Positions 29,136-49,506 of a stretch of DNA of 64,000 nt are shown in pieces; position 1 is the stretch's first letter; every line of letters begins with the position of its first letter. The notes under the pieces are model-generated. The model had not been told where the DNA came from, searched no databases, and worked only from the letters and a program-made list of their open reading frames with translations. The position numbers and the translations under genes are program-made. The stretch is from Rudaeicoccus suwonensis (GTDB lineage Bacteria > Actinomycetota > Actinomycetes > Actinomycetales > Dermatophilaceae): contig NZ_VIVQ01000001.1 of assembly GCF_007829035.1 (NCBI RefSeq), forward strand, positions 930,001 to 994,000, read 5' to 3'.

Positions 29136-29213
29136 ACATCCAGAAGAATCCCGGTACGCTGGCCGACTGAAACCGGACAGCCTCCGATTGATCACCGAAG
29201 CTCAGAGGAATTG

Positions 29214-33054: not shown

Positions 33055-34398
33055 ATGGGTGTCCGCGTGCTGATCCAGTCCCGGTTGTCGTCGTCCCGCC
33101 TGCCGGGCAAGGCGCTGCTCACGCTCGCCGGGCGACCGCTGGTGGTGCTGGCGGCACAACGAGCCTCCAACACCGGCATGGACGTGGTCGTCGCGACCAG
33201 TTCAGAGCCCGAGGACGACGTGCTGGCGGCGGCGTTGCAGGTTGCTGAAGTGCCCGTCTTCCGCGGGCCACTGCACGACACCCTGCATCGGTTCACGCTC
33301 GCCGTCGCCGACCTCGCCGACGACGATCTGGTCGTTCGGCTCACCGGCGACAATGTGGGCCCCGACGGCGACTACCTGCAGACGCTGATCGCCGCGATGC
33401 AGCAGGCGGGGGAGAACTACATCCGGGTCACCACCGAGACGATCTACGGGATGGGGGTCGAGGTTTTCACCGCCGGTGTGCTGCGGGCAGCCGACCGGGA
33501 GGCCACCTCGTCATACGACCGCGAGCATGTCACGCCCTGGATCCGCCGGCACACCGCGGATCTGACCTGGATCCCACCGGTCGAAGGTGCCGCCGGGCGG
33601 GTGCGGTGCACCGTCGACACACTGCTGGACTTCACCATCGCCGCGCATGCCCTCGCGGGGGTCGGCGATCCGGTGTCGGCCGGCTGGCGCGAACTGCTCG
33701 ACGCCTGGGTGTCCGTCGGTGGTGCGAAGCCCGAGCCGCTGCCCGGCAGCGTCCCGAATCCGATCGGCCTGGGGCCGTGGGTGCTCGGCGGGTCACAGCT
33801 GGGCGCGACCACCAATGCCGACGGTGAGCCGGATGCTGCCGAAGCCTCCCGGTTGATGGAGCGGGCCGTGGCCTCCGGGGTGACCCACATCGAGACCTCG
33901 TTGTCGTATGCCGGCAGCGCGCCGCGCGTCGGTCAGTCCCTCGCCCACGGCCTCAGTGAGCGGGTCGGAGTGATCGCGCTGTTGCCGACCGGGTTGCCCG
34001 ACGGCGCAGACGCAGCGGCCTGGGAGACTCTGGCCCGGCTGCGGTATGCCGCAGTCGACGTGCTCGTGACGGCGAACTGGGCCGACTGGCTGCAGGCGGC
34101 CGAGGCGCTGAGCCTGACCAATGCCTCGAGCATCGCCCGATGTCTGGGAACCGTGGTGGCCGACGAGCACGAGTTCACCGCGGCGATCGAGGACCCGCGA
34201 CTGGGTTACGTCGAACTGCCTCTCGAACTCGCGGATCTGGCTGCTGCCGCTCCTCGCGAGCTGGTGGTCGTGGTGCGATGCCCCGACGCCGTGACCGGCG
34301 CACGGCTGGGCGGAGTGCCGGGCGTCACGGCCGCGCTGGTCGATGCCGGTTCGGTGGATCAGGTGCGCGAGCAGGCCGAGGTCTTCGGTCGGCGCTGA
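33055..34398 (+). CDS. PseF/SpsF-like CMP-sugar cytidylyltransferase fused to an aldo/keto-reductase-like domain
   Basis: 447 residues. Residues 1-235 are a cytidylyltransferase of the NeuA/PseF/SpsF type: VLIQSRLSSSRLPGKALL (nucleotide loop), RLTGDN (95-100), and REHVTPWI. This enzyme would make CMP-pseudaminic acid. Residues 240-447 resemble an aldo/keto reductase (VLGGSQLG, EASRLMERAVASGVTHIETSLSYAG, GQSLA). The AKR catalytic Asp is replaced by Glu280, while Tyr285 remains, and the C-terminal barrel half is poorly conserved, so activity is doubtful. All other Pse enzymes are encoded nearby. Confidence 0.8.
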   Translation: MGVRVLIQSRLSSSRLPGKALLTLAGRPLVVLAAQRASNTGMDVVVATSSEPEDDVLAAALQVAEVPVFRGPLHDTLHRFTLAVADLADDDLVVRLTGDNVGPDGDYLQTLIAAMQQAGENYIRVTTETIYGMGVEVFTAGVLRAADREATSSYDREHVTPWIRRHTADLTWIPPVEGAAGRVRCTVDTLLDFTIAAHALAGVGDPVSAGWRELLDAWVSVGGAKPEPLPGSVPNPIGLGPWVLGGSQLGATTNADGEPDAAEASRLMERAVASGVTHIETSLSYAGSAPRVGQSLAHGLSERVGVIALLPTGLPDGADAAAWETLARLRYAAVDVLVTANWADWLQAAEALSLTNASSIARCLGTVVADEHEFTAAIEDPRLGYVELPLELADLAAAAPRELVVVVRCPDAVTGARLGGVPGVTAALVDAGSVDQVREQAEVFGRR

Positions 34399-34535: not shown

Positions 34536-35579
34536 TCAGCGGCGGGTGAGCACCGCGTCGAGAGCGTCTGCGACGCGTTCGCGTCCGTGGCCGTCGACGA
34601 GTTCCTGTCCCCGGCGGGCGAGCATGTGCCGCAGGGACTCGTCGTCGAGCAGGTGCGCGAGGGTGTCCGCGGCAGCGGCGTCATACCGCGACAGCGTCCC
34701 GAGGCCCGCGACGACCTCGTGATTCAAGGTTGCGCGGTATCCCTGCTCCTGGTTGTCGACGACGCAGACGACGGCAGTCGGCACGCCCATCGTGAGCAGT
34801 TCCCAGACCGACGAGCCGGACGCGCTGATGGCGAGATCTGCCGTAGCCACGACGGCGGCGAAATCCGGCGACGGGTCGATGACGTCCAGGCTCTGACCGG
34901 CGCCGAGAACAAGCGTTTCGAGGGCCGTTCGTGTGGCCGGGCGGGCAGCGACGACGGTGACCTCGCAGGGTCGCCCGGTGCTCAACAGCGAGGGGACGAC
35001 GACCCCAGCTGCGTCATACGGGTCGGTCCCGCCGAAGACGCACACCACGCGCGGTGGTTGCCGTGCGGGACCGGGGTTCATGGTGTCCCGGCGGTGTGCC
35101 AGGACGCTGGAGCGGAACAGCGCGTAGTCGACCCCGGCGAGAGCGGTCGAGTCCGGCGGGCCGCCGACATGCGGGAGCGCGCCGAGGTTCTGGTCGACAT
35201 ACAGGTCGGCGGATTGAGCCGCGCCGAACGGCCCGTCCACCATCGCCAGCACGCAGACTCCGGCGGAGCGCAGCGCCGCGCCTGATGCGGGGTCGAGTGC
35301 GTAGCCGTCGAGCACGACCGCATCGAAGACTCCGGCCGCTGCAGCAAGGTCCGTCGCGGCAGAGGGGGCGTCGAGCCGGTCGACTCCTGCCGACGCCAGG
35401 CCCTGTTCGAGCCAAGCGACTCCGCCGAGGTCTCCCCACAGGGTGACCTGGTGGCCGCGAGAGCGGAGTTCTTCGCCGAGGGCCAGGCATCGCACCGCAT
35501 GGCCGACGCCGATGGTGCGGCCCGCGTCGCACCGCAGAGCGATGGATGCCGCCGGCGGCGCGGGGGAGCGGTCACTCAC
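34536..35579 (-). CDS. pseG: PseG-type UDP-sugar hydrolase of pseudaminic acid synthesis
   Basis: 347 residues of GT-B type related to MurG. ALRCDAGRTIGVGHAVRCLALGEELRSRGHQV is the PseG signature (with the catalytic His in GxGHxxR), followed by DGYALDP and the C-terminal DLAISASGSSVWELLTMGVPTAVVCVVDNQE. PseG removes UDP from the 2,4-diacetamido-trideoxy-altropyranose intermediate before condensation by PseI. GTG 35579 follows TAGCAT at 7 nt. It is divergent from pseB (77-bp gap). Confidence 0.87.
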   Translation of the reverse strand: MSDRSPAPPAASIALRCDAGRTIGVGHAVRCLALGEELRSRGHQVTLWGDLGGVAWLEQGLASAGVDRLDAPSAATDLAAAAGVFDAVVLDGYALDPASGAALRSAGVCVLAMVDGPFGAAQSADLYVDQNLGALPHVGGPPDSTALAGVDYALFRSSVLAHRRDTMNPGPARQPPRVVCVFGGTDPYDAAGVVVPSLLSTGRPCEVTVVAARPATRTALETLVLGAGQSLDVIDPSPDFAAVVATADLAISASGSSVWELLTMGVPTAVVCVVDNQEQGYRATLNHEVVAGLGTLSRYDAAAADTLAHLLDDESLRHMLARRGQELVDGHGRERVADALDAVLTRR

Positions 35580-35586
35580 CGTGCCG

Positions 35587-35592
35587 ATGCTA
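35587..35592 (-). promoter_or_regulatory. TAGCAT -10-like box before pseG
   Basis: On the minus strand TAGCAT, 7 nt, then GTG 35579, which decides the start over an ORF extended to 35609. Confidence 0.45.
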
Positions 35593-35656
35593 GCCTTTAC
35601 GCTGGCCAACGCCCTGCGGCGAGGCCTGTCGTCGTCGCCTGATTGGGAGTTTTTGC

Positions 35657-36646
35657 GTGAGTATTCTGGCCGGTTCGTCGATCCTCATCACCGGTGGCAC
35701 CGGTTCGTTCGGCAAAGCGTTCATCACTCGACTGCTCAGCGATGTGGACCCCAAGCGAGTCGTGATCTACTCCCGCGATGAACTCAAGCAGTGGGAGGTC
35801 CGCCAGCAGTTCGGCGACGACCCGCGACTGCGGTGGTTCATCGGCGACGTGCGTGACCTCGACCGTCTCAAGCGTGCCATGCACAAGATCGACTACGTGG
35901 TGCACGCCGCCGCGCTGAAGCAGGTCGACACCGGCGAATACAACCCGAGCGAATTCGTCAAGACGAACGTCATGGGCAGCCAGAACGTCGTCGAGGCCGC
36001 CATCGACTCCGGTGTCAAGAAGGTCGTCGCGCTGTCGACCGACAAGGCCTCCAGCCCGATCAACCTGTATGGCGCAACCAAGCTCACCGCCGACAAGCTG
36101 TTCATCCTCGGCAACCATTACGCGGCGGCCTACGAGACGCGGTTCTCCGTGGTGCGCTACGGCAACGTGACTGGTTCGCGCGGTTCGATCATCCCCAAGT
36201 TCAAGGCGCTGCACGCCGCCGGCGAGTCCCTGCCGATCACCGACCTGCGGTGCACGCGATTCCTGATCACGCTCCCGGATGCGGTCCAGATGGTGCTCGA
36301 CACCTTCGAGATGATGCAAGGCGGCGAACTCGTCGTGCCGCACATCCCCTCGCACATGGTCACCGACCTCGCTCAGGCGATCGCTCCCGGCGCGAAGATG
36401 CACGACATCGGTCTGCGGCCCGGTGAGAAGCTGCACGAGGAGATGATCAGCCCCGAGGAGGGCCGCCGCGCGGTGATCGTCATGGATGGCAAGTACTTCG
36501 TGCTGCAGCCGGAACTCGCCACCTGGGGTTACAAGCCGATCGAGGGCGCCCAGCCGGTTCCCGAAGGCTTCCACTGCTCATCCGACAAGAACGACCTGTG
36601 GTACTCCGCCGAGGACATCGCCAAGGTGTTGGAGTCGGGCGTTTGA
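35657..36646 (+). CDS. pseB: UDP-GlcNAc 4,6-dehydratase (5-inverting)
   Basis: 329 residues of the SDR fold. ILITGGTGSFGKAF (NAD loop), YSRDELKQWEVRQQF, HAAALKQVDTGEYNP, VALSTDKASSPINLYGATK, and NVTGSRGSIIPKF are characteristic of PseB/FlaA1. In place of the SDR catalytic Tyr-xxx-Lys it has YGATK, which is present. It carries out the first step towards pseudaminic acid. GGGAG lies 7 nt before GTG 35657. It overlaps pseC by 4 bp. Confidence 0.95.
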   Translation: MSILAGSSILITGGTGSFGKAFITRLLSDVDPKRVVIYSRDELKQWEVRQQFGDDPRLRWFIGDVRDLDRLKRAMHKIDYVVHAAALKQVDTGEYNPSEFVKTNVMGSQNVVEAAIDSGVKKVVALSTDKASSPINLYGATKLTADKLFILGNHYAAAYETRFSVVRYGNVTGSRGSIIPKFKALHAAGESLPITDLRCTRFLITLPDAVQMVLDTFEMMQGGELVVPHIPSHMVTDLAQAIAPGAKMHDIGLRPGEKLHEEMISPEEGRRAVIVMDGKYFVLQPELATWGYKPIEGAQPVPEGFHCSSDKNDLWYSAEDIAKVLESGV

Positions 36647-37791
36647 GCGGCGAACCGGTGCTGCCCTACGGGCGGCAGTCGATCGACGAGTCCGACATCG
36701 CGGCGGTAGCCGCCGTGCTGCGCGGCGACTGGCTCACGACGGGTCCCGCCGTCGATGCCTTCGAGCGTGAGATCGCGGCTGTCGCGGGATGCGAGGAGCC
36801 GGCAGTCACGGTGACGTCGGGCACGGCCGCCCTGCACACGGCATACGCCGCGACAGGTGTCGGTCCTGGCGACGAGGTCATCACCACCCCGCTGACCTTC
36901 TTCGCGACGGCAACCTGCGCGATGTGGCAGGGCGCGACGATCGTCTTCGCCGACGTCTGCGAAGACACCGGCAATCTCGACCCGGTCGCGGTCGAGGCTG
37001 CCGTCACCGACCGCACAAAGGTCGTCGCAGGCGTGGACTACGCCGGTCACCCGATCGACGCCCCGGCATTGTCGAAGGTCGCGCACGCCGCGGGTGCTGT
37101 GCTGCTGGAGGATGCAGCCCACTCGATCGCCGGATCACTCGACGGCGTGCCGGTCGGGTCGCTGGCCGACGTAACGACCTTCAGCTTCTTCCCGACCAAG
37201 AACCTCACCACCGCCGAGGGTGGCGCCGTGGTGTCGCACAGCGCTGAAATCCTAGGCGCCGCAAGGGATTTCAAGAGCATCGGCTACACGCGTGACAGGG
37301 CGAAGTGGTGCTCGCAGGAGGACGAGGGTGTCTGGTACTACGAGGTGCACTCACTCGGCCTGAACTACCGTCTGCCGGATGTTCTCGCGGCGCTCGGCAG
37401 CAACCAGCTGACCCGCATCGCGAAGTTCAAGAAGCGGCGGCAGGAGGTCACCGACCGCTACAACCAGGGGCTGGCCGACATACCGGAGCTTGTCCTCCCG
37501 GCGCACCGGCCCGGTGCCGACCCCATGTGGCATCTGTACCCGCTGCGGATCGTCGACGGCCGCCGGCGTGAGTTGTTCGACCATCTGCGAGCCAACGCGG
37601 TGGGTGTGCAGGTGAACTACATCCCCGTGCACCATCAGCCGATCTTCGCCGAATTGGGTTGGCGTAAGGGGCAGTTCCCGATCGCGGAGGCCTACTCCGC
37701 TCAGGAGATCAGCCTGCCGATGTTCCCAAGTCTGACCGACGACGACATCGACCGGGTCATCGACCTGGTGCGTTCCTTCGTCCGGGCCTGA
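36643..37791 (+). CDS. pseC: UDP-4-keto-sugar aminotransferase (PseC)
   Basis: 382 residues of the DegT/DnrJ/EryC1/StrS aminotransferase class. TSGTAALHTAY, EDAAHSIAG, and the PLP lysine in FFPTKNLTTAEGG (Lys186), then LGLNYRLPDVLAALG and VNYIPVHHQPIF. It aminates the PseB product at C4. TTG 36643 overlaps the pseB stop (TTGA) with GGAG 8 nt upstream; GTG 36658 is an alternative. An unknown gene follows after 21 bp. Confidence 0.92.
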   Translation: MSGEPVLPYGRQSIDESDIAAVAAVLRGDWLTTGPAVDAFEREIAAVAGCEEPAVTVTSGTAALHTAYAATGVGPGDEVITTPLTFFATATCAMWQGATIVFADVCEDTGNLDPVAVEAAVTDRTKVVAGVDYAGHPIDAPALSKVAHAAGAVLLEDAAHSIAGSLDGVPVGSLADVTTFSFFPTKNLTTAEGGAVVSHSAEILGAARDFKSIGYTRDRAKWCSQEDEGVWYYEVHSLGLNYRLPDVLAALGSNQLTRIAKFKKRRQEVTDRYNQGLADIPELVLPAHRPGADPMWHLYPLRIVDGRRRELFDHLRANAVGVQVNYIPVHHQPIFAELGWRKGQFPIAEAYSAQEISLPMFPSLTDDDIDRVIDLVRSFVRA

Positions 37792-37812: not shown

Positions 37813-38640
37813 ATGCACCACGCCAACGTCTTCTACGGACACGCGCAGATCCTCGCGCGCTACTGCGGGCTGCAGGAGGCTCCACCGATCTGGGGTTACC
37901 TGCAGCACGGCTGGAACACCCACGACGGGTTCGCCGTCGGTCACGAGTTCGTGCCGGGGTATCCCAAGCTTGTCTGGTCGGAGGCCGTACGTCGGCGCGG
38001 CTGGTCACTGGGACTGCGCGACTACGTCGTGATCGGGTCGCCGTGGGCGTATCTGCTGACCCTGCAACCGGATTCGGCACCAGCGGGCGAGGGCACGATC
38101 GTGTATCCCTTCCACGGATGGGAGGGCCAGCAGATCGTCGGCGACCACGCGGCATACGCCGACGAGGTGCGATCGGTCGAGGGCGACGTGCCGTTGACGA
38201 TGTGCCTCTACTGGAACGACTACCTCGACGAGCGCGTCCGCAGCGTGTACGAGCAGCGCGGGTTCCGCGTCATCACGCACGGGCGACGCGGCCATCAGTA
38301 CGTCGGCGGTGACACGGACTTCCTCGACAACCAGCTCGCCGAGCTTCGCCGGCATCGGCGTGTCGTCAGCAACCGGCTCGGGTCAGCCTTGCTGTATGCC
38401 GCATCGCTTGGTCGTGAGATCGGAGTGTATGGCGACCCGATGGTCCTGCAGAACGATCATGCGGTGCTCGGCGGCATGGCAAAGCAGCTGCGGCTGTTCC
38501 CCGACCTGCACCACCGGCAGGTCGACCCGGATGTCGCAGCACGGGTCAGCACCGAGGAGCTGGGTCTGGACGTGCTGCTGCTGCCAGGAGCGTTGCGGCA
38601 TACGTTGGGCTGGGCGGACGCTGACGACGGCGCTGAATGA
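37813..38640 (+). CDS. Unknown glycopolymer-locus protein, copy A
   Basis: 275 residues, no characterised family recognised. It is a clear paralogue of the 281-residue protein at 40839-41684; shared segments include MHHxNxxYGHAxILARYCGL, GYLQHGWN, VxGxPWxYL, a (F/Y)xFHGWEG turn, and a C-terminal (S/A)NRL(G/S)(S/T)AxxYxxxxGxExxVYGDPM. The last stretch resembles the sugar-nucleotide-site region of GT-B enzymes, so a glycosyltransferase role is possible but inferred. It follows pseC by 21 bp in the same operon. ATG 37813 lacks a good Shine-Dalgarno, suggesting coupling to pseC. Confidence 0.8.
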   Translation: MHHANVFYGHAQILARYCGLQEAPPIWGYLQHGWNTHDGFAVGHEFVPGYPKLVWSEAVRRRGWSLGLRDYVVIGSPWAYLLTLQPDSAPAGEGTIVYPFHGWEGQQIVGDHAAYADEVRSVEGDVPLTMCLYWNDYLDERVRSVYEQRGFRVITHGRRGHQYVGGDTDFLDNQLAELRRHRRVVSNRLGSALLYAASLGREIGVYGDPMVLQNDHAVLGGMAKQLRLFPDLHHRQVDPDVAARVSTEELGLDVLLLPGALRHTLGWADADDGAE

Positions 38641-38880: not shown

Positions 38881-40842
38881 TCAGCTCTCCTTGGCTTTTG
38901 CTGCCGCGGCGCGGGCCCGCTGGGCACGTTTGACGACACGCTCGACGCCTGCGCCGAGTTCGCCGACGCTGCGCACCTGAGCGGTGCGCTTGGCGACCCG
39001 GAGCAGGTTGCCGGCGGCAGTACGTTGAGCCGCCACCGCTCCGGCCGGCCCGGCACCCTTGCGCAGGTTCCGAATGACCTCCTCGCGGGTGCGCAACTGC
39101 TTGTCGCGGAATCCGATGGTGCGCTCAAGGCCCGCGATGTGACCGAGCGCCTCCTGAAGTTCGCGACGGGCCGCTTGCGCGTCGGCCAACGCGGTGCGCA
39201 GGTCGGCTGTGGAACAGGCGCCGGGACGCTGCTCACCCGCAGCGAGTGTCAGCGCCAGGTCGCGGGCGCGGTCGAGCACAGCGTCGGTGGCCTCCACGCC
39301 GGCCATCTCCGTCCACGTCGCTACGAGCTCGCGGCCGAGCAGGTGTGTGGGCCACGGGTGCCTGCGGTGCTCGGTGACCATCCGGTCCTGCAGCAGGAAG
39401 AACGCGGCCGCGAGCGTCTCGGCCGTCCCGACCGGCCCGGACCAGCGGCGCGCGTCGAAGCCGGGCGCAGTCTCACGGCCGGCGACGACGAGGTTGTCGA
39501 GAGTCACGACGCGGTGCTCGGGCACCGGGATGGCATCGACGTGTGCACCGACGGCTGCGGCGAGATCGCGGAAGCCCGGAACGTCCCCGAGTTCGGCCAG
39601 TCGCAGCAACTCCTGCGCGACCGTGGGACCGAACGGCACACGACGGGTGAGCAGGGACTCGTCGATCACGACATCGATGTGGTCGCTCTTGCCGGTCGCG
39701 GCGGCTGCGCCGACTGACTGGGGCGGGAGTCCGGCGAGAGCGCCACGCGGCGCGGTCGTGGATGCCGGTTCGCCCGCCTGTGCGCCCGGCGTTGCCCGCT
39801 CGGTGACATACCGTGCAGTTTCCGACGGCTGAGCGGTGTCGCGCTCGAGTTCGGGGGTGAACTCCGCATCCGGCCAGCTCGCGCCCGACACATCGACCGC
39901 ACGCGACAGGTGCCACCCGGCATACTCCGCGGTCGGCCCGGTGGCCACGGCGAGGGTGCCGGAAGGAGTCGCGTTGATGAGTCCCACGTCGTGGGAGAAG
40001 CCGTGCAGCACCACCGAGACGGCGGCCGCGTCACTGATCCGGCCGACCTTGGCGAGCAGATCGATGAGCTCGTCCTGCGAGGCGAGCAACGGGCGCAGGT
40101 CGGCGTCGGCGGCGAGCTTGGCGAACGCGGCGACGCTGCCGGTAAGACCGGCGGTCGTCTGTGAGACGTCGGCGAGCAGACGGGGAGCTGCGGCCGGGCC
40201 GAAGCCGACCAGCTGCCCCGCCGAGGAGCGGATGCCGCGCACCGAGCGAACGGCATCGACGAACCCGTCGTGGGTGAGCGGCCGGGTCGGGTCGTGGTAG
40301 AACGGCCGCCAGTCGTCGTCCCCGTGCCGCTGCGACACCGGGCGGGCATCCAGAATGTTGGCCGGAGCCGACTCGAGGGGATGCGCAATGGCCAACGCGC
40401 CGTCATCGGTGAGCAGTGAGGTCAGCGCTCGCAGCGTGTCGTCCCAGCTGAGTTCGGCCGAGTCGTAGGACAGCAGACGGTCCAGACCGTCGAGCGCGAT
40501 GACGACGTCGAAGGGTGCCGGCGACGTCGCGCGGAACCCGTCGAGTGCGCCCGCACCGACCTGTATGTCGGGGAGTTCTTCGGTCAACTGCGCGGCGTCC
40601 GTCGCCGATCGCACCAGCACGGTGACCTGGGCGTCGGTGATCTGCGAAGCGACCGCCCGCACCAGAGACACCGAGTGCGGCCCCGCGATCAGCACGCGTG
40701 GCGTCGGCCGATCCGTGGACAGGCGCACCTCGCGGACGAGTGCTTCGAGCACCGGACCACCAGCGGCATACGACTGCCCGGAGTAGTCGGTCCAGGGCTG
40801 CATCTCACCGGCAACGACCTCGGTGGTGGTGGACTGGCTCAT
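38881..40842 (-). CDS. Methyltransferase-like protein with C-terminal coiled coil (copy A)
   Basis: 653 residues. About 45-190 resemble a Rossmann/SAM-type fold (PRVLIAGPHSVSLVRAVAS, FDVVIALDGLDRLL, LLTDDGALAIAHPLES) but without a clear GxGxG SAM loop, so it may be degenerate. A second region (about 390-560) is of unknown fold. Residues about 565-620 form a heptad-rich coiled coil (DLRTALADAQAARRELQEAL), followed by a basic Lys/Arg/Ala tail. The protein at 45486-47006 has the same plan. It is last in the pseI-GT2-copy B operon, overlapping the previous gene by 4 bp. Function unknown. Confidence 0.75.
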   Translation of the reverse strand: MSQSTTTEVVAGEMQPWTDYSGQSYAAGGPVLEALVREVRLSTDRPTPRVLIAGPHSVSLVRAVASQITDAQVTVLVRSATDAAQLTEELPDIQVGAGALDGFRATSPAPFDVVIALDGLDRLLSYDSAELSWDDTLRALTSLLTDDGALAIAHPLESAPANILDARPVSQRHGDDDWRPFYHDPTRPLTHDGFVDAVRSVRGIRSSAGQLVGFGPAAAPRLLADVSQTTAGLTGSVAAFAKLAADADLRPLLASQDELIDLLAKVGRISDAAAVSVVLHGFSHDVGLINATPSGTLAVATGPTAEYAGWHLSRAVDVSGASWPDAEFTPELERDTAQPSETARYVTERATPGAQAGEPASTTAPRGALAGLPPQSVGAAAATGKSDHIDVVIDESLLTRRVPFGPTVAQELLRLAELGDVPGFRDLAAAVGAHVDAIPVPEHRVVTLDNLVVAGRETAPGFDARRWSGPVGTAETLAAAFFLLQDRMVTEHRRHPWPTHLLGRELVATWTEMAGVEATDAVLDRARDLALTLAAGEQRPGACSTADLRTALADAQAARRELQEALGHIAGLERTIGFRDKQLRTREEVIRNLRKGAGPAGAVAAQRTAAGNLLRVAKRTAQVRSVGELGAGVERVVKRAQRARAAAAKAKES

Positions 40843-41684
40843 TCGTTACTCCCGTCGAACATGACGCGCTTGATTTCCCGGGGCGGCATGACGAACCGCC
40901 GGCCGAGCTCGTGGTCGGTGATCTGAGCAGCGGTCTGCTGATCGATGACCTTGCGGGTCATCTCCGGCCAGAGCCGCTGCACTCGAGCGTTGCCGCCGAA
41001 ACGCGGGTCCTCGCCTTCCATCAGCATCGGATCGCCATACACTGCGACCTCCGCGCCGGCGGCGACGCCGTAGAAGATCGCCGTGGACAACCGGTTCGCG
41101 GCCACCCGCTTGTGGCGCCGCATCGCTGCCAACTGCTTGTAGAGGAACAGGGGGTCGGTGCCCACATAGGAGAAGCCGCGGCCCCCGAAGCTGATCACGT
41201 CGAAACCGGCATCGTGATAGGCCGCGCGGATCTCGGGGCGGTTGTACTCGGTGTAGTAGAGCGAGAAGGTGACCGGGCCCTCCTCGGTCTCACGGATCTC
41301 GTCGATCAACCGCTGGTGGTCGCCGGTGATCTTGCCGCCCTCCCAGCCGTGGAACAGGAAGAACAAGGTGCCTTCACGCTCGACGGGCTCCTCGGTCTCC
41401 TCGTCGAAGAAACCGAGGGTCGGCTCCTGCTGCATGAGGTAGAGCCAGGGTGCGCCGACGACGTGGTAGTTGCGTCGGCCAAGCGCGTAGCCGCGTCTCG
41501 CGACAGCCGGGCTCCAGACGAAACGCGTTGCGCCGTCGAAGAACTCGTGGGTGGGGTTGTAGCCGTCGCCGACATTCCAGCCGTGCTGCAGGTAACCGCG
41601 GATGCGCGGTGGGTTCTCTTCGTCGAGCCCGCAGTACCGCGCCAAGATGTGCGCGTGGCCGTAGTAGTGGTTGTGGTGATGCAT
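40839..41684 (-). CDS. Unknown glycopolymer-locus protein, copy B
   Basis: 281 residues, paralogous to 37813-38640 over nearly full length (see that entry for shared segments). Here the N-terminus is His-rich (MHHHNHYYGHAHIL). No signal peptide or membrane span is evident, so it is probably cytoplasmic. It lies between the large GT2 and the methyltransferase-like gene in one operon. A sugar transferase for pseudaminic acid or a related residue is possible; no catalytic residue can be named. Confidence 0.8.
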   Translation of the reverse strand: MHHHNHYYGHAHILARYCGLDEENPPRIRGYLQHGWNVGDGYNPTHEFFDGATRFVWSPAVARRGYALGRRNYHVVGAPWLYLMQQEPTLGFFDEETEEPVEREGTLFFLFHGWEGGKITGDHQRLIDEIRETEEGPVTFSLYYTEYNRPEIRAAYHDAGFDVISFGGRGFSYVGTDPLFLYKQLAAMRRHKRVAANRLSTAIFYGVAAGAEVAVYGDPMLMEGEDPRFGGNARVQRLWPEMTRKVIDQQTAAQITDHELGRRFVMPPREIKRVMFDGSNE

Positions 41685-41699
41685 CAGTTCACTCTCGGG

Positions 41700-44045
41700 T
41701 CATCGGTCATCGCGGATCTCCAGATGGAGGGTGTCGGCTCTCTGCCGCAGCGTGCCACGGTGGGTGCCCAGATGGGCGATCACCGGCAGGGTGGCGATCA
41801 GGAACGGCTCGGGCAGAACAGCAGTGGACAGATTGCGGTCCTCGCTGGAGCAGAACAACGTCCAGTTGGCCAGGCTCGCCAGGGGGTCGATGTCGCTGAC
41901 CACACCTGGCACGTCGAGCAGGTCGCGCACCGGCGTGCGGACTTCCCATGAGTCCGCGCCGGTCTGTGCAGGCGCGGTCTCCAGGAACTCCTCGGTGCCG
42001 GGCAGGTAGCGGCGCCAGGCGAGGGTCCACGAGTCGGTACCGGTCCAGTTGCGCCCGCGCGCCACCAGTTCGGTGCCTTCGCCGTCGCCTTCGAGCACGA
42101 CCTCGTCGGCGGTCAGTCGCACGGCGGTCTCGCGCAGGAAGGTGAGGTTCTCCGGATCGCGCAGCAGGCGGAACTGGTGTTCACCCACCTGAGTGCCCAC
42201 CGACCGTGGTGTCCCGGTCCAGGTGAGGTCCTCGTTGACTCCGGCGGCGCGAACGCGCACCGCGCGGGTGGTCATCTGCAGATACGGGTCGTCGTCGTCG
42301 GTGTGTGCTTGCACGTCGAGCAGCGGGAGGCGGCCGGTGATGCGGGTCTTGTCACCCTCGATCACGCAGGTCGCGGGATACCGCAGCTCGTCGGCGAACT
42401 GGCTGCCGTCGAGGATGAACTGGGCAACCTGCAGTGGCCGCGGAGCCAGCGCCTCGACCACCAGGTCGGTGCCCTCGACGCGCCCGTCGACCAGTTGCCA
42501 GGGGTTGGGGCGCCACGACAACTGAAGTTCGGCACCCGTAGACGACTCGGGCTGCAGCCACATCGTCGGACTCACCCAGGCACCGGGTTGCCAGGTGGCG
42601 CTGCCTGGCCGCAGACCCTTGACCAGACCCTGCTTGCGTTTGCCGTTGCTGCTGATCTGCAGGTCAAAGCGCACCGCGTCCTCACTGACCGACCAGCGCG
42701 CGAGTTGATCGCGGGGGATCCGCAGCTCGAAGCCGACGTCGCTGAGCTGGCCATGAGAGTCGATGTCCTTGAAGCGGCGCACGGGTAGTTCCTCGCGCAA
42801 CGACTTGGACACGGCGAAAACCTTGATGCGGCTGTTGGCATTCGACCGCAGATGTCGCACCTCGGCGGTGCCCTGGACCCGGAGTTCGTCGTCGACGAAA
42901 CGCACATCGTTGACCGCGGTGCGCAGCGACAGGTCGGCGGACGGAGAAAGGAAGGTGTCTCGCGGTATGTACGACCGGTCGCGACCGGGGTAGAGGTACT
43001 CGTAGCGGCTGAGACTGCGCGGCATCTTCACGGCTCGCGCGCCACCACGCAGGCCACCGTCTTGGCGGAAGAGCGCAAGCTCACGCAACAGATCCACGTC
43101 GCGCGCCATCATGGCGTGGTACTGCAACTGGTCGAACCGCGGACGCTGCAGCAGAGCGTCGAGCCCCAATCGCTCGACGAATCCGTGCCCGAGCTCGATG
43201 ATGCGGTCGACGTCGGCGTCCGGAACGGTGGCGAACGCCTGCACGATGGCCAGGAAGTCGGACTCGGCGAGCATGACGTGCGTCCGCATCCGCACCGCCT
43301 TCTGTGCCGACGCCACCAGGTCGATGACCATTCCCGCTGAGCGCACCCGGTCGACCAGGTTGTCGTAGCGGTACACCTGCTGGGTGATGGAGTCGCCGGA
43401 TTCGCGCTCGCGCCAGTAGTAGACCGGTTCGCTGATGATGTCGACCGTGACTGCGTCAAGGTGGGCCTTGATCGTGACGGGGTAGTCCTCGTAACGGATC
43501 GCCGGAAACTCGTAGGCGTACTCATCCCAGAAGCTGCGGCGGTAGACCTTGTTCCACACCATCCGGTCGCGGGCGAGAACTGCGTGTTCGGTGACGTGGG
43601 TCGCCGGCCAGTCCATCGCGAACGCGTGCAGATGCGCCCATGACGGCTTGACGCCGGTGCTGTTATTGAACCGGCGGGCGTTGCCTCCGGCGAACGACGA
43701 ACCGGTCTCGTCCAGGCTGTCCACCATCTGGGCGAAGCCGTGCCGCGTGACCAGGTCGTCGCTGTCGATGAAGGTGAGGTACTCACCGGAGGAGTTGGCC
43801 GTCCCGGTGTTGCGTGCCGGACCGAGTCCGGCGTTCTTCTGCGTGACGATGTGAAACCGGCTGTCGCGGTCGGCATACTCCTGGGCCACGGCGCGACTGC
43901 CGTCGAGGGATCCGTCGTCGACCATCACGACTTCGATGTCCTGCAGTTGCTGGACCCGGATGGATTCGAGGCAGTCGCCGATGTAGTCCTGTACGCCGTA
44001 GAAAGGCACGACCACCGACAGGCGCGGTCTGGTGGAAAGCGACAT
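41700..44045 (-). CDS. Large GT2 glycosyltransferase with C-terminal beta-rich domains
   Basis: 781 residues. Residues 1-220 are GT-A: LSVVVPFYGVQDYIGDCLESI, VDDGSLDGSR, KNAGLGPARNTG, and FIDSDDLV (DxD metal site). Residues 220-340 are helical, and 360-781 form repeated beta-rich modules (SRIKVFAVS, ARWSVSEDAVRF, VRVRAAG) like the C-terminal domains of wall teichoic acid glycosyltransferases. It probably elongates or decorates the polymer. ATG 44045 lies 8 bp after pseI, although the frame is open further upstream. Confidence 0.88.
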   Translation of the reverse strand: MSLSTRPRLSVVVPFYGVQDYIGDCLESIRVQQLQDIEVVMVDDGSLDGSRAVAQEYADRDSRFHIVTQKNAGLGPARNTGTANSSGEYLTFIDSDDLVTRHGFAQMVDSLDETGSSFAGGNARRFNNSTGVKPSWAHLHAFAMDWPATHVTEHAVLARDRMVWNKVYRRSFWDEYAYEFPAIRYEDYPVTIKAHLDAVTVDIISEPVYYWRERESGDSITQQVYRYDNLVDRVRSAGMVIDLVASAQKAVRMRTHVMLAESDFLAIVQAFATVPDADVDRIIELGHGFVERLGLDALLQRPRFDQLQYHAMMARDVDLLRELALFRQDGGLRGGARAVKMPRSLSRYEYLYPGRDRSYIPRDTFLSPSADLSLRTAVNDVRFVDDELRVQGTAEVRHLRSNANSRIKVFAVSKSLREELPVRRFKDIDSHGQLSDVGFELRIPRDQLARWSVSEDAVRFDLQISSNGKRKQGLVKGLRPGSATWQPGAWVSPTMWLQPESSTGAELQLSWRPNPWQLVDGRVEGTDLVVEALAPRPLQVAQFILDGSQFADELRYPATCVIEGDKTRITGRLPLLDVQAHTDDDDPYLQMTTRAVRVRAAGVNEDLTWTGTPRSVGTQVGEHQFRLLRDPENLTFLRETAVRLTADEVVLEGDGEGTELVARGRNWTGTDSWTLAWRRYLPGTEEFLETAPAQTGADSWEVRTPVRDLLDVPGVVSDIDPLASLANWTLFCSSEDRNLSTAVLPEPFLIATLPVIAHLGTHRGTLRQRADTLHLEIRDDR

Positions 44046-44053
44046 CGACCGGC

Positions 44054-45103
44054 TCAGATCAGGTCCCAGGACAAAGCGGTGCCGCGGGGCGTGTCCTGCT
44101 GGAAGGTGCGGCCCTCGACCGTGCTGAACAGGTCGGTCGGCAGACCACCGGCGGGACGGATCGAGCGGACGTTGTCTGCGGTGACCTTGTCGCCGGCGCG
44201 CACGTCGGCCACGACATACAGCGAGCGGCGGAAGCGCAGGCCCTCGGCTTCCTGGGCGCGCGCGCCGATGCGCGGGCGGCCGAGGCACTGCCAGGCGACC
44301 TTGGACTGCGAGACCAGGATGCGCAACTCGTCGGGTTCGCTGGAGAAGGAGGAGTCCACGCCACCGCCCTCACGCGACAGCGTGACGTGCTTCTCGACGA
44401 CGCAGGCGCCGAGAGCGACCGCGGCGATCGGCGCGCCGACACCGATCGTGTGGTCGGAGTAACCGACCAGGGTGCCGAAGGTGTCGGCCATCACCGGGAT
44501 GCCACGAAGGTTCGAATCCGCTGGATCCGCGGGGTAGTTCGCGGTGCATGCCAGTACGACGATCTGCTCGTTGCCGGTCGATCGCGCTGCTTCGACGGCC
44601 GCGTGGATCTCGCCGACGGACGCCATACCGGTCGAGATGATGATCGGCTTGCCCTTGGACGCGGCGAGACGGATCAGCGGCAGATCGACGATCTCGGAGC
44701 TGGCGATCTTGTATGCCGGAGTGTTCAGCGACTCCAGCAGGTCGACCGCCGTCGGGTCGAACGGTGAGGAGAAGCAGACAAGTCCGAGGGATGCGGCGAG
44801 TTCGAAGATCGGCGCGTGCCATTCCCAGGGCGTGTGCGCCTCGGTGTAGAGGTCCCAGAGGGTACGGCCGCCCCACAACTCGTGGCCGTCGGACAGCCGG
44901 AAATCCGGCGCGTCGGAGTCGATGGTGATCGTCTCGGGCTTGTAGGTCTGGAGCTTCACGGCATGCGCTCCCGCATCGGCGACCATCCGGACGATGTCCA
45001 GCGCCTTGTCCAGCGAACCGTCGTGGTTGCCGGACACCTCGGCGATGATGAACGGCTCGTGGGCCGGGCCGATCCGGTGCTTGCCGATCTGGATCTCAGT
45101 CAT
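44054..45103 (-). CDS. pseI: Pseudaminic acid synthase
   Basis: 349 residues of the NeuB family. A TIM barrel (1-285) with FIIAEVSGNHDGSLDKAL, GAHAVKLQTYKPETIT, SSPFDPTAVDLLE, ASSEIVDLPLI and STGMASVGEI, plus a C-terminal SAF/antifreeze-like domain (290-349) with RRSLYVVADVRAGD. It condenses the free amino sugar with phosphoenolpyruvate. With PseB/C/G in the locus, PseI rather than NeuB is the better name. AGGAGG lies 7 nt before ATG 45103 but only 1 nt before the ATG at 45109, so 45103 is chosen. Confidence 0.9.
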   Translation of the reverse strand: MTEIQIGKHRIGPAHEPFIIAEVSGNHDGSLDKALDIVRMVADAGAHAVKLQTYKPETITIDSDAPDFRLSDGHELWGGRTLWDLYTEAHTPWEWHAPIFELAASLGLVCFSSPFDPTAVDLLESLNTPAYKIASSEIVDLPLIRLAASKGKPIIISTGMASVGEIHAAVEAARSTGNEQIVVLACTANYPADPADSNLRGIPVMADTFGTLVGYSDHTIGVGAPIAAVALGACVVEKHVTLSREGGGVDSSFSSEPDELRILVSQSKVAWQCLGRPRIGARAQEAEGLRFRRSLYVVADVRAGDKVTADNVRSIRPAGGLPTDLFSTVEGRTFQQDTPRGTALSWDLI

Positions 45104-45109
45104 GCGCAT

Positions 45110-45485
45110 GCCTCCTACGGCGGATCGTTGGCGAGATCGTGGTGCGGCGACCCCGCAGGCAGTCGCGTCGGCACGGTGGTAACCGACCGGCGATACAAGA
45201 ATTCGGCGAGATCTGCGGCCGATTGCGCGGGACCATCACGACCTGCTGCGTATGCAACGGCGGCTGGCGCAGCATCAAGCCTCCGTGAGCGAATCTGGTC
45301 GTTGTTGCGGCGCGGGAACTGGCCCGACAGGCGTCAACATTACAACAGCTAGTTTTCAGGTAACGATGCCGCGCCGGGGCACGGGTGCTGTGTCGGCGAG
45401 CTTGCCGACACAGTCGCCGCACGCTCGACAAGTGACTCGCCGGCATCCGCGCCGGCCGGGTGTCTGGCGCCGCGCGCATGCGGCC
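45110..45485. other. Gene-free stretch upstream of pseI, likely promoter
   Basis: No convincing gene. An A/T-rich patch at about 45333-45366 probably holds the minus-strand promoter of the pseI-GT2 operon; I cannot place -35 and -10 with confidence. A terminator-like hairpin lies at 45388-45413. Confidence 0.5.
45388..45413. terminator. 10-bp hairpin after the methyltransferase-like gene
   Basis: CTGTGTCGGC (45388-45397) and GCCGACACAG (45404-45413) form a perfect stem with a 6-nt loop, about 70 bp beyond the stop at 45486. No T tract. Confidence 0.55.
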
Positions 45486-47006
45486 TCATCGGCGGAGCCG
45501 CGAACGCGCCGCCTCGACGATCCGCTGGGTCGGTGCGGTCATGAGGAACAACGCCCGCCGCGCCCTCGGGCCGTGCTCGGTGGCGATCGCGTGCTCGAGA
45601 GCCCGGACCCGTCGGGTCTGCCGATTGACGGTGTTTCGCAGATCGGTGATCTGGGTGTCACGGTCGCGCAGGGCGTCGGTCAGTTCGGTGATCCGGATCG
45701 TGGCATCGCCCTGGCTGTCAGTGCCGCCGGCGTCGCGGCCGCTGGCGGTACCGCCGATGGCGTCACGCCGGACGCGCCGGCCCGGCAGGTCGGTGCGCTC
45801 GCGCAGCGCCTCGGCGGCGTGCCACACCGCTTCCGGCAGGTCGATGAGGGCGCCGAGATCGCGCGCGAGGTCGGTGGCCGATCGTTCCGGCGGGAACTGC
45901 ATGCCACCGCCTTGGTGGTCGACGGCGGCGTGTGCAAGATCAAGGAGACCGTGCGCGACGGCGACATCCGGCTCGCGGACCGGAGGCTGCGCGCCGGCCG
46001 ATCGGTCGGGCGCGGGTGCGACGAGCCAGAGACCGTCAGCGCCGAGCACCGTATGGCGGGGGACCGCCGCCACCTGGTCATCGGCGGTGAGCGAGGCCAC
46101 CCATGCGGCATACCTGGTGAGCAGTCGGCGCAACTCGACCTGCTGGCCGCACCGCAGTGCGCTCAGCAGCAGCGCCTCCAGAGACGATCCGGTCGCTTGG
46201 CCCGGGGTCAGTTGGTCGGTGCCGCCGATCGCGTCGCTCCGGATCGGGGCGGACGGCGCAAGTGGCGCGCCCAGCACGACCAGCCAGCCGTCGGCGAGGT
46301 GTTCCAGCACCTGCGCGTCCAACGCCGTGGTCAGCGCTGGGTAACACGACAGTGTCGTGCTGATGGCGGCACGGCCGGCCAGTGTGCGCACGGTCTCGAG
46401 CTCGGCCACGAGGGTCGGGACGCCGACCGCTTCGATGATGAAATGCGTCGGAGGCCATGGCAATTCGCTGAGCACTGGTGGGCGTGTGTCGTATCCGCTG
46501 GTGCCGGTCCACCACTTCTCGTTGCCGGCAAGTCGTCGTGAGCCGGTGTCGGCCGCCGACGGGCTCAGCGCGCTCGCGACACGTGCGAGGAGCCGGCCAC
46601 CGGGTGCCACATGCTGCTGCGCCATCGTCACCACGTCGACGTGCGATGTGCCGGGTGAGTCCGGTGTGAGAACCTCGCCTGGCCCGTCGAGCAGTATGAC
46701 GGTGTCGGCGACCACGGATTCCGGAAGACGGTCGAGTCCTCCGCAGCAGACGTCGGCGGTGGCCACCTCCGCCTGCACGCGGGCTGCGTCGGTGGTGCCG
46801 CGGACCACGACGGTCGCGGCAGGGCACGCCGTGGCCAAGGCAACGGCGCTGGCACCGATCAGCAGGACGGACCCGGAGGCGTCCGCCAGCGTGTCACGCA
46901 GGAACGGTTCGAGGACACCGAGTCCGCGCGGCTGGTCGGACCAGTTCGGCATCTCGCCGCCGATCAGGCGAACTTCGGGCATGTGGTCGGCACCGCTCTC
47001 TGACAC
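45486..47006 (-). CDS. Methyltransferase-like protein with C-terminal coiled coil (copy B)
   Basis: 506 residues with the same order as the protein at 38881-40842: an N-terminal GGEMPNWSDQP segment (compare GEMQPWTDYSGQ), a degenerate Rossmann fold (SVLLIGASAVALATA, DTVILLDGPGEVL, HVAPGGRLLARVAS), a variable middle, and a coiled coil near 430-475 (ITELTDALRDRDTQITDLRN) before a basic end. No SAM motif I is certain. GTG 47006 follows TAGGCT at 7 nt; ATG 46982 is an alternative. Function unknown; the pair flanks the pseI operon. Confidence 0.75.
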   Translation of the reverse strand: MSESGADHMPEVRLIGGEMPNWSDQPRGLGVLEPFLRDTLADASGSVLLIGASAVALATACPAATVVVRGTTDAARVQAEVATADVCCGGLDRLPESVVADTVILLDGPGEVLTPDSPGTSHVDVVTMAQQHVAPGGRLLARVASALSPSAADTGSRRLAGNEKWWTGTSGYDTRPPVLSELPWPPTHFIIEAVGVPTLVAELETVRTLAGRAAISTTLSCYPALTTALDAQVLEHLADGWLVVLGAPLAPSAPIRSDAIGGTDQLTPGQATGSSLEALLLSALRCGQQVELRRLLTRYAAWVASLTADDQVAAVPRHTVLGADGLWLVAPAPDRSAGAQPPVREPDVAVAHGLLDLAHAAVDHQGGGMQFPPERSATDLARDLGALIDLPEAVWHAAEALRERTDLPGRRVRRDAIGGTASGRDAGGTDSQGDATIRITELTDALRDRDTQITDLRNTVNRQTRRVRALEHAIATEHGPRARRALFLMTAPTQRIVEAARSRLRR

Positions 47007-47073: not shown

Positions 47074-47221
47074 GTCGGTGTCCCCGCTGCAGCGATGGTG
47101 CGTCTCAGTCACCCGGCCGACGAACCCGGCGAATGGTGTGCACCACCGTCGGTGTCCCCGCTGCAGCGATGGTGCGTCTCAGTCACCCGGCTGACGAACC
47201 CGGCGAATGGTGTGCACCACC
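47074..47221. repeat. 74-bp tandem duplication of the pseH 3' end
   Basis: 47074-47147 and 47148-47221 are the same except for one base; 47222 begins a third copy for 11 bases. The second copy holds the pseH stop and its last 14 codons, and the first lies just beyond the stop. It is a recent head-to-tail duplication of the gene's end. Confidence 0.9.
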
Positions 47222-47679
47222 GTCGGTGTCCCGTCGATGACGCGCTCCTCGGTGCCGATCTCCTCGAAGCCGTTGCGGGTGTTCATCCGGCGCACCGCCT
47301 CGTTGGCGTCGAGCACCTCGCCGTCGAGGGTGTCCAGGCCCAGTTCGCCGAACGCGAACCTCACCGCCTCGCGCTGGATCTTGATCCAGGCGGGCAGCAG
47401 TTCGCCGCGGGCTTCGAGACCTGCGTTGTCGAGGTAGTAACCCCACATGGCCGACCGCGACGACTGGTCGATGTCGAAGAACGTCACGACACCAGCGGCC
47501 ACGCCGGCTCGCTCGAAGATGAATACCTTGCGCGTCGGGTTGTCGCGCAGGGATTGCCAGTACGCCTCGTGCTGCTCGGGGGAGATCTCGTCGCGGGTCA
47601 GCGACACCGCCCGGACGGTCGGGTGGTTGCGCCATACGCGCACGTTTTCTTTGTCGGCGTCGGTGGCGGCACGCAGCAT
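47179..47679 (-). CDS. pseH: PseH-type GNAT acetyltransferase
   Basis: This 166-residue GNAT protein matches PseH, the UDP-4-amino-sugar N-acetyltransferase: MLRAATDADKENVRVWRNHPTVR at the start, then WQSLRDNPTRKVFIFE, GVVTFFDIDQ, and the C-terminal EVLDANEAVRRMNTRNGFEEIGTEERVIDG. It acetylates N4 of the altrosamine intermediate between PseC and PseG. GGAG lies 6 nt before ATG 47679. The 3' end is inside a 74-bp duplication. It is divergent from an acyl carrier protein operon, which may supply a different acyl donor. Confidence 0.85.
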   Translation of the reverse strand: MLRAATDADKENVRVWRNHPTVRAVSLTRDEISPEQHEAYWQSLRDNPTRKVFIFERAGVAAGVVTFFDIDQSSRSAMWGYYLDNAGLEARGELLPAWIKIQREAVRFAFGELGLDTLDGEVLDANEAVRRMNTRNGFEEIGTEERVIDGTPTVVHTIRRVRQPGD

Positions 47680-47965: not shown

Positions 47966-48217
47966 ATGTCCACGCTGAGCCGTGACCAGGTGCGCACGAT
48001 GATGGGTGAGGTGCTGACTGCGCAGGGCAAGCAGTTGCCCGCCGACGACACCACCCGGTTGGACTCGATCGGATTCCGTTCCCTTGACTTCTCCGAGCTG
48101 GCGCTGCGGGTCGAGGACGAACTCGACACCGAGCTCAACTTCGATGCGCCCGAGCTTCGCTCGATCGAGACGGTCAGCGACGTCCTGGATTTCATCGATC
48201 AGCTGCAGTCGGCGTGA
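47966..48217 (+). CDS. Acyl carrier protein
   Basis: 83 residues with the carrier-protein four-helix pattern. The phosphopantetheine serine is Ser39 in DSIGFRSLDFSELA, where the usual DSL is RSL. GGAGG precedes ATG 47966. It overlaps the next gene (GTGA), an acyl-activating enzyme, and a ketoreductase follows; this suggests a dedicated carrier rather than the fatty-acid ACP. Neighbouring pseH and the other Pse genes suggest the loaded acyl group may end up on the sugar or polymer. Confidence 0.88.
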   Translation: MSTLSRDQVRTMMGEVLTAQGKQLPADDTTRLDSIGFRSLDFSELALRVEDELDTELNFDAPELRSIETVSDVLDFIDQLQSA

Positions 48218-49506
48218 CCTTGCCAGCTGGTGCCGGCAACCGCATCGTCACCGCGACGTATGCCGGGACCTGGGCCGGGCTGATCGTCGATCCGGCGGTG
48301 ACTGGAGCGGTCGGGTCGGACACGGACGCAACGGGTGCTGCGGCAGCGTCCGATGCAGAAGTCGGCGCGTCGGCACCGAGCCCCGCGGCATACCTGGTGC
48401 AGGACAACACCGAAGCCGCGCGCGCCGTCTTGCTCCACGCGACCGCGGGCGATCGCGAGACGTTGGTCGTTGCGGCATCCCGGATCGACGACGAACGCGC
48501 CACACAGCTGCGTGCCGACGGCTTTGCCGTGGTGCGCGGTGACGAGGTCGAAGCAGCGACGACGTCGCGGCCTGCCGATCCGGGTCGCATCTGGCTGCTT
48601 ACGAGCGGTTCGACGGGCCGGCCGAAACAGGTTGCGCACACATTGGATTCGCTGACGACGGTGGGCGGTTCACAACCCAGCCGGGTCTGGCTGTGCCCTT
48701 ATGCGACCGGTGCGTACGCGTGGTGGCAGGTCGTCACGATGTCGCTGGCGATGCCCGGCCAGGATGTCGTCTTCGTGGAGCCCTCACAGCTGGACTCGTG
48801 GCCGGCGCTCGCGCTGAAGCACGGCGTCACGGCGGCGTCCGGCACTCCGACGTTCTGGCGGCAGGCTCTGTGGCGGGCCGGCGATGTCGTCGCGCAGCTG
48901 CCGTTGGAGCAGATCACCCTCGGCGGCGAGCCCGTCGACCAGGCGATCCTGGACCGCTTGCGGGAGGTCTTCCCGACCGCGCGCATCTCGTGGATCTACG
49001 CCTCGTCCGAGGCCGGTGCGGCCATCGTCGTGCACGACGGGCTCGCAGGATTCCCCGAGGCGTGGCTTGGCCGCGAGACGCCTGGTCGACCCGCGCTGAG
49101 CGTCGTCGACGGTGAACTCGTGATCGCCTCGCCGAAGGCCGCCGAAGGTATGGCGGAAGGCATCCGCACCGGCGACCGTGTCGACATCGTCGACGGTCGC
49201 GTGCTGATCACCGGGCGACTCGCGTCTGACGAGATCAACGTTGGGGGTTCGAAGGCGTCGGCTGCGAAGGTGCGGGCGGTGCTGCTGGATCACCCTGCCG
49301 TCGCGTGGGCGGCGGTGCGCGGGCGGCGTGCGCCGCTCGTCGGCCAGGTGGTGGCCGGTGAGGTGGTCCTTGTGCCAGGCGAGACCACCACAGATGCCGA
49401 CCTCATCGCCTGGTGCGCTGAGCGGCTGCCGGACTACTCCGTGCCACGCCGGTTGCGTGTGCTGACCGAAATCCCGATCAAGGAGACGTTGAAGAGCGAT
49501 GTCTGA
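48214..49506 (+). CDS. AMP-dependent acyl-activating ligase
   Basis: 430 residues, shorter than the usual 500-550 of acyl-CoA/acyl-ACP synthetases. LLTSGSTGRPK (129-138) is the phosphate-binding loop; WIYASSEAGA and GDRVDIVDGRVLITGRLASDEINVGGSKAS are adenylation motifs A5-A8. Catalytic Lys is likely Lys423 or Lys427 in IPIKETLK. It should activate a carboxylic acid and load it on the adjacent carrier protein, with an arrangement like that of DltA and DltC. The N-terminal 120 residues are short and Ala-rich. Overlaps its neighbours on both sides. Confidence 0.85.
   Translation: MTLPAGAGNRIVTATYAGTWAGLIVDPAVTGAVGSDTDATGAAAASDAEVGASAPSPAAYLVQDNTEAARAVLLHATAGDRETLVVAASRIDDERATQLRADGFAVVRGDEVEAATTSRPADPGRIWLLTSGSTGRPKQVAHTLDSLTTVGGSQPSRVWLCPYATGAYAWWQVVTMSLAMPGQDVVFVEPSQLDSWPALALKHGVTAASGTPTFWRQALWRAGDVVAQLPLEQITLGGEPVDQAILDRLREVFPTARISWIYASSEAGAAIVVHDGLAGFPEAWLGRETPGRPALSVVDGELVIASPKAAEGMAEGIRTGDRVDIVDGRVLITGRLASDEINVGGSKASAAKVRAVLLDHPAVAWAAVRGRRAPLVGQVVAGEVVLVPGETTTDADLIAWCAERLPDYSVPRRLRVLTEIPIKETLKSDV

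Follow-up and report, generated by a model that had tools for sequence, protein, structure and literature searches.

What do two unannotated coiled-coil proteins do in a pseudaminic acid locus of the actinobacterium Rudaeicoccus suwonensis? The window analyzed here is a 64,000-nucleotide stretch of its genome (contig NZ_VIVQ01000001.1, positions 930,001 to 994,000). The two proteins, P1 and P2, are encoded by open reading frames at 38881-40842 and 45486-47006, which exist as a preliminary description gave them when it likened their role to that of WbdD, a capping protein with a coiled-coil length ruler. We consider it fairly probable that each of them serves as a dedicated partner subunit of a small glycosyltransferase, P1 of GTx1 and P2 of GTx2, in a locus for a pseudaminate-containing surface glycan, and that they are of WbdD-like descent, with the S-adenosylmethionine (SAM) and kinase motifs gone and the scaffold kept. 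Neither protein has a significant Pfam or NCBIfam match, with no SAM methyltransferase model over its curated cut-off, and nothing on the P family was found among the open-access titles and abstract openings listed.

The proposed partnership is based on how P and GTx genes occur together. A GTx scan of named genomes, limited to the top 80 among 260 relatives, places a P gene downstream of GTx at 79 of 80 loci, and in 77 of those 79 the two genes overlap when the nearest in-frame start is taken for P, a choice that favours overlap. Profile searches of 394 genomes of the class give the same picture: the strongest GTx matches (E about 1e-107 or less) fall in the same 10 genomes that have strong P matches (E about 1e-81 or less). 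The only other P matches are a chance match in G057 (E 1.9e-4), which overlaps a helicase-like frame, and the more distant protein L032 of genome G387 (E 1.9e-19).

In the window's family, 30 of 31 genomes have as many P genes as GTx genes, at 1 to 4 copies, and these include 15 of the 16 multi-copy genomes. Shuffling gives a mean of 11.2 equal genomes and never reached 30 in 100,000 shuffles. The exception is G449, whose assembly is fragmented (87% complete, 280 contigs). The 31 genomes were picked for their P matches, with the GTx-only cases (L140, G303, G226 and G234) standing outside the count, and the threshold of E 1e-8 removed weak P matches without GTx (G429, G506 and G534) as well as single weak P pieces (G020, G023, G442, G473 and G497). 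Adjacency does not explain the equality, because about half of the 55 P genes do not adjoin GTx: 25 are scored directly downstream of it, and at least three of the other 30 (G008, G424 and G480) are cut matches that probably abut it.

The two families also have similar trees. Among 34 pairs, the P and GTx trees have 18 of 31 splits in common; without the long-branched L017a, 33 pairs have 18 of 30 in common, whereas none of 2000 label shuffles exceeds 3. The window copies part alike in both trees, GTx1 and P1 grouping with L015 of genome G003 (L015 has one GTx and one P) and GTx2 and P2 grouping with L019, L020 and L021 in a non-adjacent set that forms a clade in both (Shimodaira–Hasegawa-like approximate likelihood ratio test supports of 100 and 99). 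These matching splits indicate that P2 most likely belongs to GTx2, and the pairs in the window are most likely P1 with GTx1 and P2 with GTx2.

Pfam gives no significant match for the GTx family. The GTx1 model (predicted local distance difference test score, pLDDT, 87.7) shows a GT-B fold over the whole chain, as aligned with TagF over residues 1-281. Its fold matches are TagF (Z 10.6, root-mean-square deviation (rmsd) 4.4, 242 residues), a uridine diphosphate (UDP)-sugar epimerase (Z 10.4) and a capsule polymerase with cytidine monophosphate (CMP) (Z 10.0). Since these scores tie, the fold says GT-B and no more; on the strength of the model, GTx is a predicted GT-B glycosyltransferase. A separate observation concerns locus L140, where the gene directly downstream of GTx encodes an ordinary SAM methyltransferase with an intact motif I (L140:10001-11644).

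P-bearing genomes are closely associated with pseudaminic acid synthesis. The synthase PseI is over its cut-off in 20 of the 394 class genomes, including all 10 with strong P matches, an overlap with a hypergeometric probability of 8e-15 (the genomes are not independent). One of the three GTx genomes without P also has PseI over the cut-off. PseI is present in all 40 P-bearing genomes that were searched as whole genomes; 41 GTx-P stretches contain no PseI themselves, and 30 of these were genome-searched, with PseI over the cut-off elsewhere in 30 of 30. A trio of GT2, GTx and P is found away from the pse genes of the same genome in L064 (Salinispora) and in L095 and L106 (Actinoplanes group). 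A Maf-type flagellin glycosyltransferase was considered in view of the pseudaminate setting and rejected, with no MAF model among the matches listed (25 of 33 Pfam families, 69 members). Teichulosonic acids occur in P-bearing genera other than Kribbella. The wall polymer of Kribbellaceae itself is a teichuronic or teichulosonic acid, according to a published account (PMC6113628).

P1 and P2 are paralogues, with a BLASTP match of E 2e-7 over the N part and a score of 40.0 bits, against a maximum of 27.3 bits for shuffled P2 (500 shuffles, 316 with a match). The P alignment includes 67 of 77 GTx-adjacent P genes, with close duplicates left out and two further genes (L085 and L133) omitted at contig ends. 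An AlphaFold2 model of P1 built from 69 aligned family members has a mean pLDDT of 83.8. In a fold comparison that covered its N part (model residues 14-281), the best match is a class I methyltransferase fold (180 aligned residues within 22-281 of the model, Z 12.7, rmsd 3.7); P2 would share this fold, given its homology to P1. WbdD does not figure among the 50 fold matches listed for P1, which speaks neither for nor against a relationship. Methyltransferase models match at most 3 of the 69 members, with a best E of 0.023, among the 25 of 33 Pfam families listed, and Protein Data Bank (PDB) sequence searches with P1, the P family profile and the N-domain profile give chance-level matches only.

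Beyond the N part, residues of about 255-540 of P1 resemble a kinase-like domain remnant. A hydrophobic period of 3.5 in the P1 model helix at 548-596 (49 residues) and in a selected stretch of P2, 435-479, predicts a coiled coil. The last 60 residues have a net charge of +11 in P1, +9 in P2 and +13 in the family median, compared with a median of -18 for the chain without its last 120 residues. The architecture given in the preliminary description, a Rossmann-like N part, a variable middle and a C-terminal coiled coil with a basic end, therefore stands.

Intact actinobacterial relatives point to the origin of this architecture. L032 (629 amino acids) combines an intact SAM motif and Pfam methyltransferase matches with a kinase-like loop, a region that resembles a coil and a basic end. 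In hhalign comparisons, the P family aligns with L032 at a probability of 98.4 (E 6.6e-15) over 470 columns, the coil included, and with L032 and a second relative, L175, at 99.2 across the N and middle domains (407 columns, E 6.2e-20). A 12-member profile of the P middle domain matches L032 at a probability of 87 (P 3.8e-6). A D-x4-N-x12-D spacing lies at aligned places in L032 and L175. The latter is part of L205:9599-14419, a chain of 1606 residues in which an N part with glycosyltransferase matches is joined to an intact methyltransferase, a kinase-like loop and an end that resembles a coil. Given this homology and these motifs, P proteins are best read, at the sequence level, as having descended from methyltransferase/kinase-like/coiled-coil proteins with the architecture of WbdD.

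The link to WbdD itself (here L173:17967-20093, E. coli HS) passes through these relatives. Direct comparison of P with WbdD is not significant (hhalign P-values of 0.19, 0.039 and 0.12). L032 and L175 align with WbdD in the methyltransferase part only (probability 49, P 1.8e-4), and plain BLASTP of L032 against WbdD gives nothing (E 0.59). The kinase residues of WbdD are given as D351, N356 and D369 in the structural account (PMC3482155). L032 adjoins two Glyphos_transf (TagF-type) genes, so the pairing of a methyltransferase/kinase-like/coiled-coil protein with a TagF-like transferase beside it may have come first. The GTx search of the 394 class genomes has no match in G387 or G088, the genomes of L032 and L175/L205, and neither genome has a PseI match.

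The catalytic motifs of these relatives are missing from P. A canonical SAM motif I at residues 36-75, which WbdD has, is found by pattern search in 0 of 77 P proteins, in agreement with the earlier remark that a clear SAM loop is lacking. The kinase spacing D-x4-N-x12-D after residue 200, present in WbdD, L032 and L175, is also found in 0 of 77; this pattern arises by chance as well, since WbdD has it once more at 82 and 2 of 77 P proteins have it in their N domains. Half-motifs persist in some P clades, with DxRxxN in 3 of 77, a later N...D.SW in 9 of 77 and both in none. P proteins are probably non-methylating, judging by these patterns. A WbdD-like capping enzyme that methylates and/or phosphorylates the chain end would fit the domain order and the common ancestry with proteins that retain both motifs, but the motif counts contradict methyl capping, an arginine is invariant (69 of 69) at the end of strand 2, and the local exporter ATPase has no Wzt_C match; we regard capping as very improbable. 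Of the comparison with WbdD, the ancestry and domain order are supported and methyl capping is not.

The former SAM pocket looks as if it has been filled by a different invariant set, not left to decay freely. G54-P55-H56 occupies the place of motif I (G in 69 of 69, P in 67 of 69 and H in 66 of 69), and G54, R78, D82, E13 and W17 are invariant in 69 of 69, as are G98, G119 and P188. Residues 1-240 hold 29 of the 45 most conserved P positions, and many conserved residues are predicted by the model to come just after strand ends, the SAM-binding site of ordinary methyltransferases, so that the pocket appears changed. In methyltransferases, an acidic residue is usual at the end of strand 2. R78 follows strand 2 of the P1 model, with the profile alignments of the P family and L032 gapped around it and thus not settling the equivalence of its position.

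Two enzymatic readings follow the pocket. According to the bolder one, which we consider rather unlikely, a methyltransferase-kinase chain terminator has been rebuilt into one half of a two-subunit pseudaminyltransferase, the half that binds the donor or the acceptor, one per GT-B protein, with an Arg/His pocket that would hold CMP-nonulosonate or the pseudaminate carboxylate. By analogy, such a pocket would be supported by GT137, the K. pneumoniae O4 ORF7 protein, described in one study as a chain terminator dependent on CMP-3-deoxy-D-manno-oct-2-ulosonic acid (CMP-Kdo) that has a coiled coil and is predicted to fold like a methyltransferase (PMC11231755). Alternatively, P itself may be a CMP-ulosonate transferase on a methyltransferase-like fold, with GTx and P acting at successive steps. 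The fold, donor class and coiled coil of GT137 offer a precedent, and PseI in the P genomes searched, the conserved residues at the SAM site, the invariant R78 and the near-invariant H56 are consistent with it. However, GT137 is described there with two beta/alpha/beta domains and a tetratricopeptide repeat (TPR)-like bundle, whereas in the P1 model a single methyltransferase-like domain precedes a part that is related to the kinase-like region of L032, and a GT-B transferase already accompanies nearly every P; this alternative is unlikely.

The coiled coil raises the question of chain length. P could be a ruler without capping, its coil setting the distance of GTx or of a length sensor from the membrane, as in WbdD. 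WbdD-type descent, the coil and the basic end are in keeping with this idea. A Wzt_C search has no match in the window ATPase (30048-30920) and matches E. coli O9 Wzt, which upholds the earlier statement that the local ATPase lacks a carbohydrate-binding domain; termination would then not be read by the exporter. However, P is as numerous as GTx, with as many as 4 copies in a genome, and this suits a transferase partner better than a single ruler or terminator for each polymer; the coil is short, and the stretch from G515 to E573 ranges from 39 to 163 residues across the family. A ruler is accordingly quite unlikely, in our estimate.

The kinase label of the middle domain is weak and depends on sequence comparison. 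The 12-member middle profile scores P 0.003 (probability 10) against aminoglycoside phosphotransferases, compared with 0.1 for an unrelated control, and the whole P family and the intact relatives score 0.011 and 0.019 (probability 2.5), respectively. An hmmsearch with the middle profile mostly gives non-significant matches to Aurora kinase catalytic loops (E 0.2 and above). Because no kinase model matched, the term kinase-like rests on the D-x4-N-x12-D spacing in L032 and L175 and on domain order. WbdD itself has a Pfam kinase match.

If P1 and P2 are partner subunits of GTx, the coiled coil would oligomerise P, the basic end would hold a P-GTx complex at the membrane, and the N pocket would bind an anionic pathway ligand, perhaps a pseudaminate residue or CMP donor, each P thereby positioning or licensing its own GTx. 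Several observations weigh against this partnership. The N pocket is conserved beyond expectation for a mere scaffold, and P may be an enzyme; co-inheritance can also arise when two enzymes act at successive steps, and part of the agreement of the trees comes from common descent of the species. L140 and 3 of the 13 class genomes with GTx (G303, G226 and G234) have no detectable P. P2 lacks P55 and H56 of the conserved motif and sits on a very long branch of the P tree, making its placement less sure. The P coil spans only about 49 residues with flanks of varying length, and Pfam shows methyltransferases but no kinase in L032 and L205.

The features of the locus are collected in Table 1. The order on the minus strand is pseH, P2, pseI, GT2, GTx1, P1, and the GTx1 and P1 genes share 4 bases. 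The two P genes had been described as bracketing a pseI operon, which is correct as to position; P1 closes the run pseI, GT2, GTx1, P1, and P2 sits between pseH and pseI with no adjoining GTx. By its position, the aminotransferase of the locus may be PseC. Relatives of the locus include those of Metallococcus carri and Knoellia subterranea.

Table 1. Locus features in window coordinates.
Feature	Position	Strand	Description
P1	38881..40842	-	653 aa; methyltransferase fold, putative kinase-like remnant, predicted coiled coil, basic end; most likely GTx1 partner
P1 N domain, residues 1-240	40123..40842	-	class I methyltransferase fold (model); non-SAM conserved set (G54 P55 H56, R78, D82, E13, W17)
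P1 middle, residues 255-540	39223..40080	-	putative kinase-like remnant and disordered insert
P1 coiled-coil helix (predicted), residues 548-596	39055..39201	-	
P1 basic tail, residues 597-653	38884..39054	-	
P2	45486..47006	-	506 aa; P1 paralogue; most likely GTx2 partner
P2 coiled-coil stretch (predicted), residues about 435-479	45570..45704	-	
GTx1	40839..41684	-	281 aa; GT-B fold (model); gene overlaps P1 start
GTx2	37813..38640	+	GTx1 paralogue; most likely P2 partner
GT2 family glycosyltransferase	41700..44045	-	long C-terminal part; upstream of GTx1
PseI, pseudaminic acid synthase	44054..45109	-	TIGR03586 over cut-off
PseH N-acetyltransferase	47179..47679	-	TIGR03585 over cut-off
PseB dehydratase	35657..36646	+	TIGR03589 over cut-off
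Aminotransferase at PseC position	36640..37791 (start codon provisional)	+	DegT/DnrJ/EryC1 family
PseG-like hydrolase	34536..35609	-	TIGR03590, 128 bits, below cut-off 153.55
Cytidine triphosphate (CTP)-dependent sugar transferase	33055..34398	+	PseF-like by position; CTP_transf_3 over cut-off
ATP-binding cassette (ABC)-2 permease	29211-30044	+	
Exporter ATPase	30048-30920	+	no Wzt_C match

Several neighbouring features are of separate note. The CTP-dependent sugar transferase has an aldo/keto-reductase-like second part, its Aldo_ket_red score of 20.4 bits lying below the Pfam cut-off of 24. Beside the pse genes, the regions 47966-50404 and 30973-32372 encode an acyl carrier-like protein (PP-binding over the cut-off), an adenosine monophosphate (AMP)-ligase, a short-chain dehydrogenase/reductase (SDR) and two open reading frames of the coenzyme A (CoA)-transferase family, which suggests an unusual N-acyl group on the sugar; the AMP-ligase and SDR are present in all seven related loci (L015-L021). 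At 47076-47224, a unit of 74 bases, which takes in the 3' end of pseH, occurs twice in tandem with one difference seen, so the spacer that separates pseH from P2 contains a copy of this gene end.

For a family with no Pfam or NCBIfam match, these results add homology to coiled-coil methyltransferase-kinase proteins and a specific candidate partner, turning an unannotated gene into part of a putative two-component transferase that can be tested. They would also supply candidate transferases for the pseudaminate glycans of actinobacteria such as Kribbella, Actinoplanes, Micromonospora, Salinispora and Knoellia. If the pocket binds a nonulosonate, a methyltransferase fold would have been turned to sugar-acid recognition, in line with GT137.

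Among known systems, the wall teichoic acid polymerases TagF and TarL are GT-B proteins like GTx1, with a second match of Z 9.6 (238 aligned, again rmsd 4.4). TagF is not singled out, the UDP-sugar epimerases and capsule polymerase lying within 1 Z, and GTx1 differs in having only 281 amino acids. GT137, as portrayed in PMC11231755, has a methyltransferase-like sheet order and a coiled coil like P, and its donor is a CMP-activated ulosonic acid; unlike P, it is a demonstrated Kdo transferase and terminator, in a comparison made by description. The same study describes ORF6-N of K. pneumoniae O7, with an N-terminal methyltransferase, an unannotated kinase domain and a coiled coil, and with orthologues that occur with and without fused transferases (PMC11231755). 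Compared on the same descriptive basis, ORF6-N is unlike P in being an active methyltransferase-kinase terminator with a SAM pocket. L032 and L175/L205 are homologous to P but retain SAM motif I and, with it, the kinase spacing of WbdD, both of which P lacks. WbdD of E. coli O9/O9a (4AZS) has the same domain order as P, methyltransferase, kinase and coiled coil, and wbdD adjoins the polymerase gene wbdA, as P1 adjoins GTx1.

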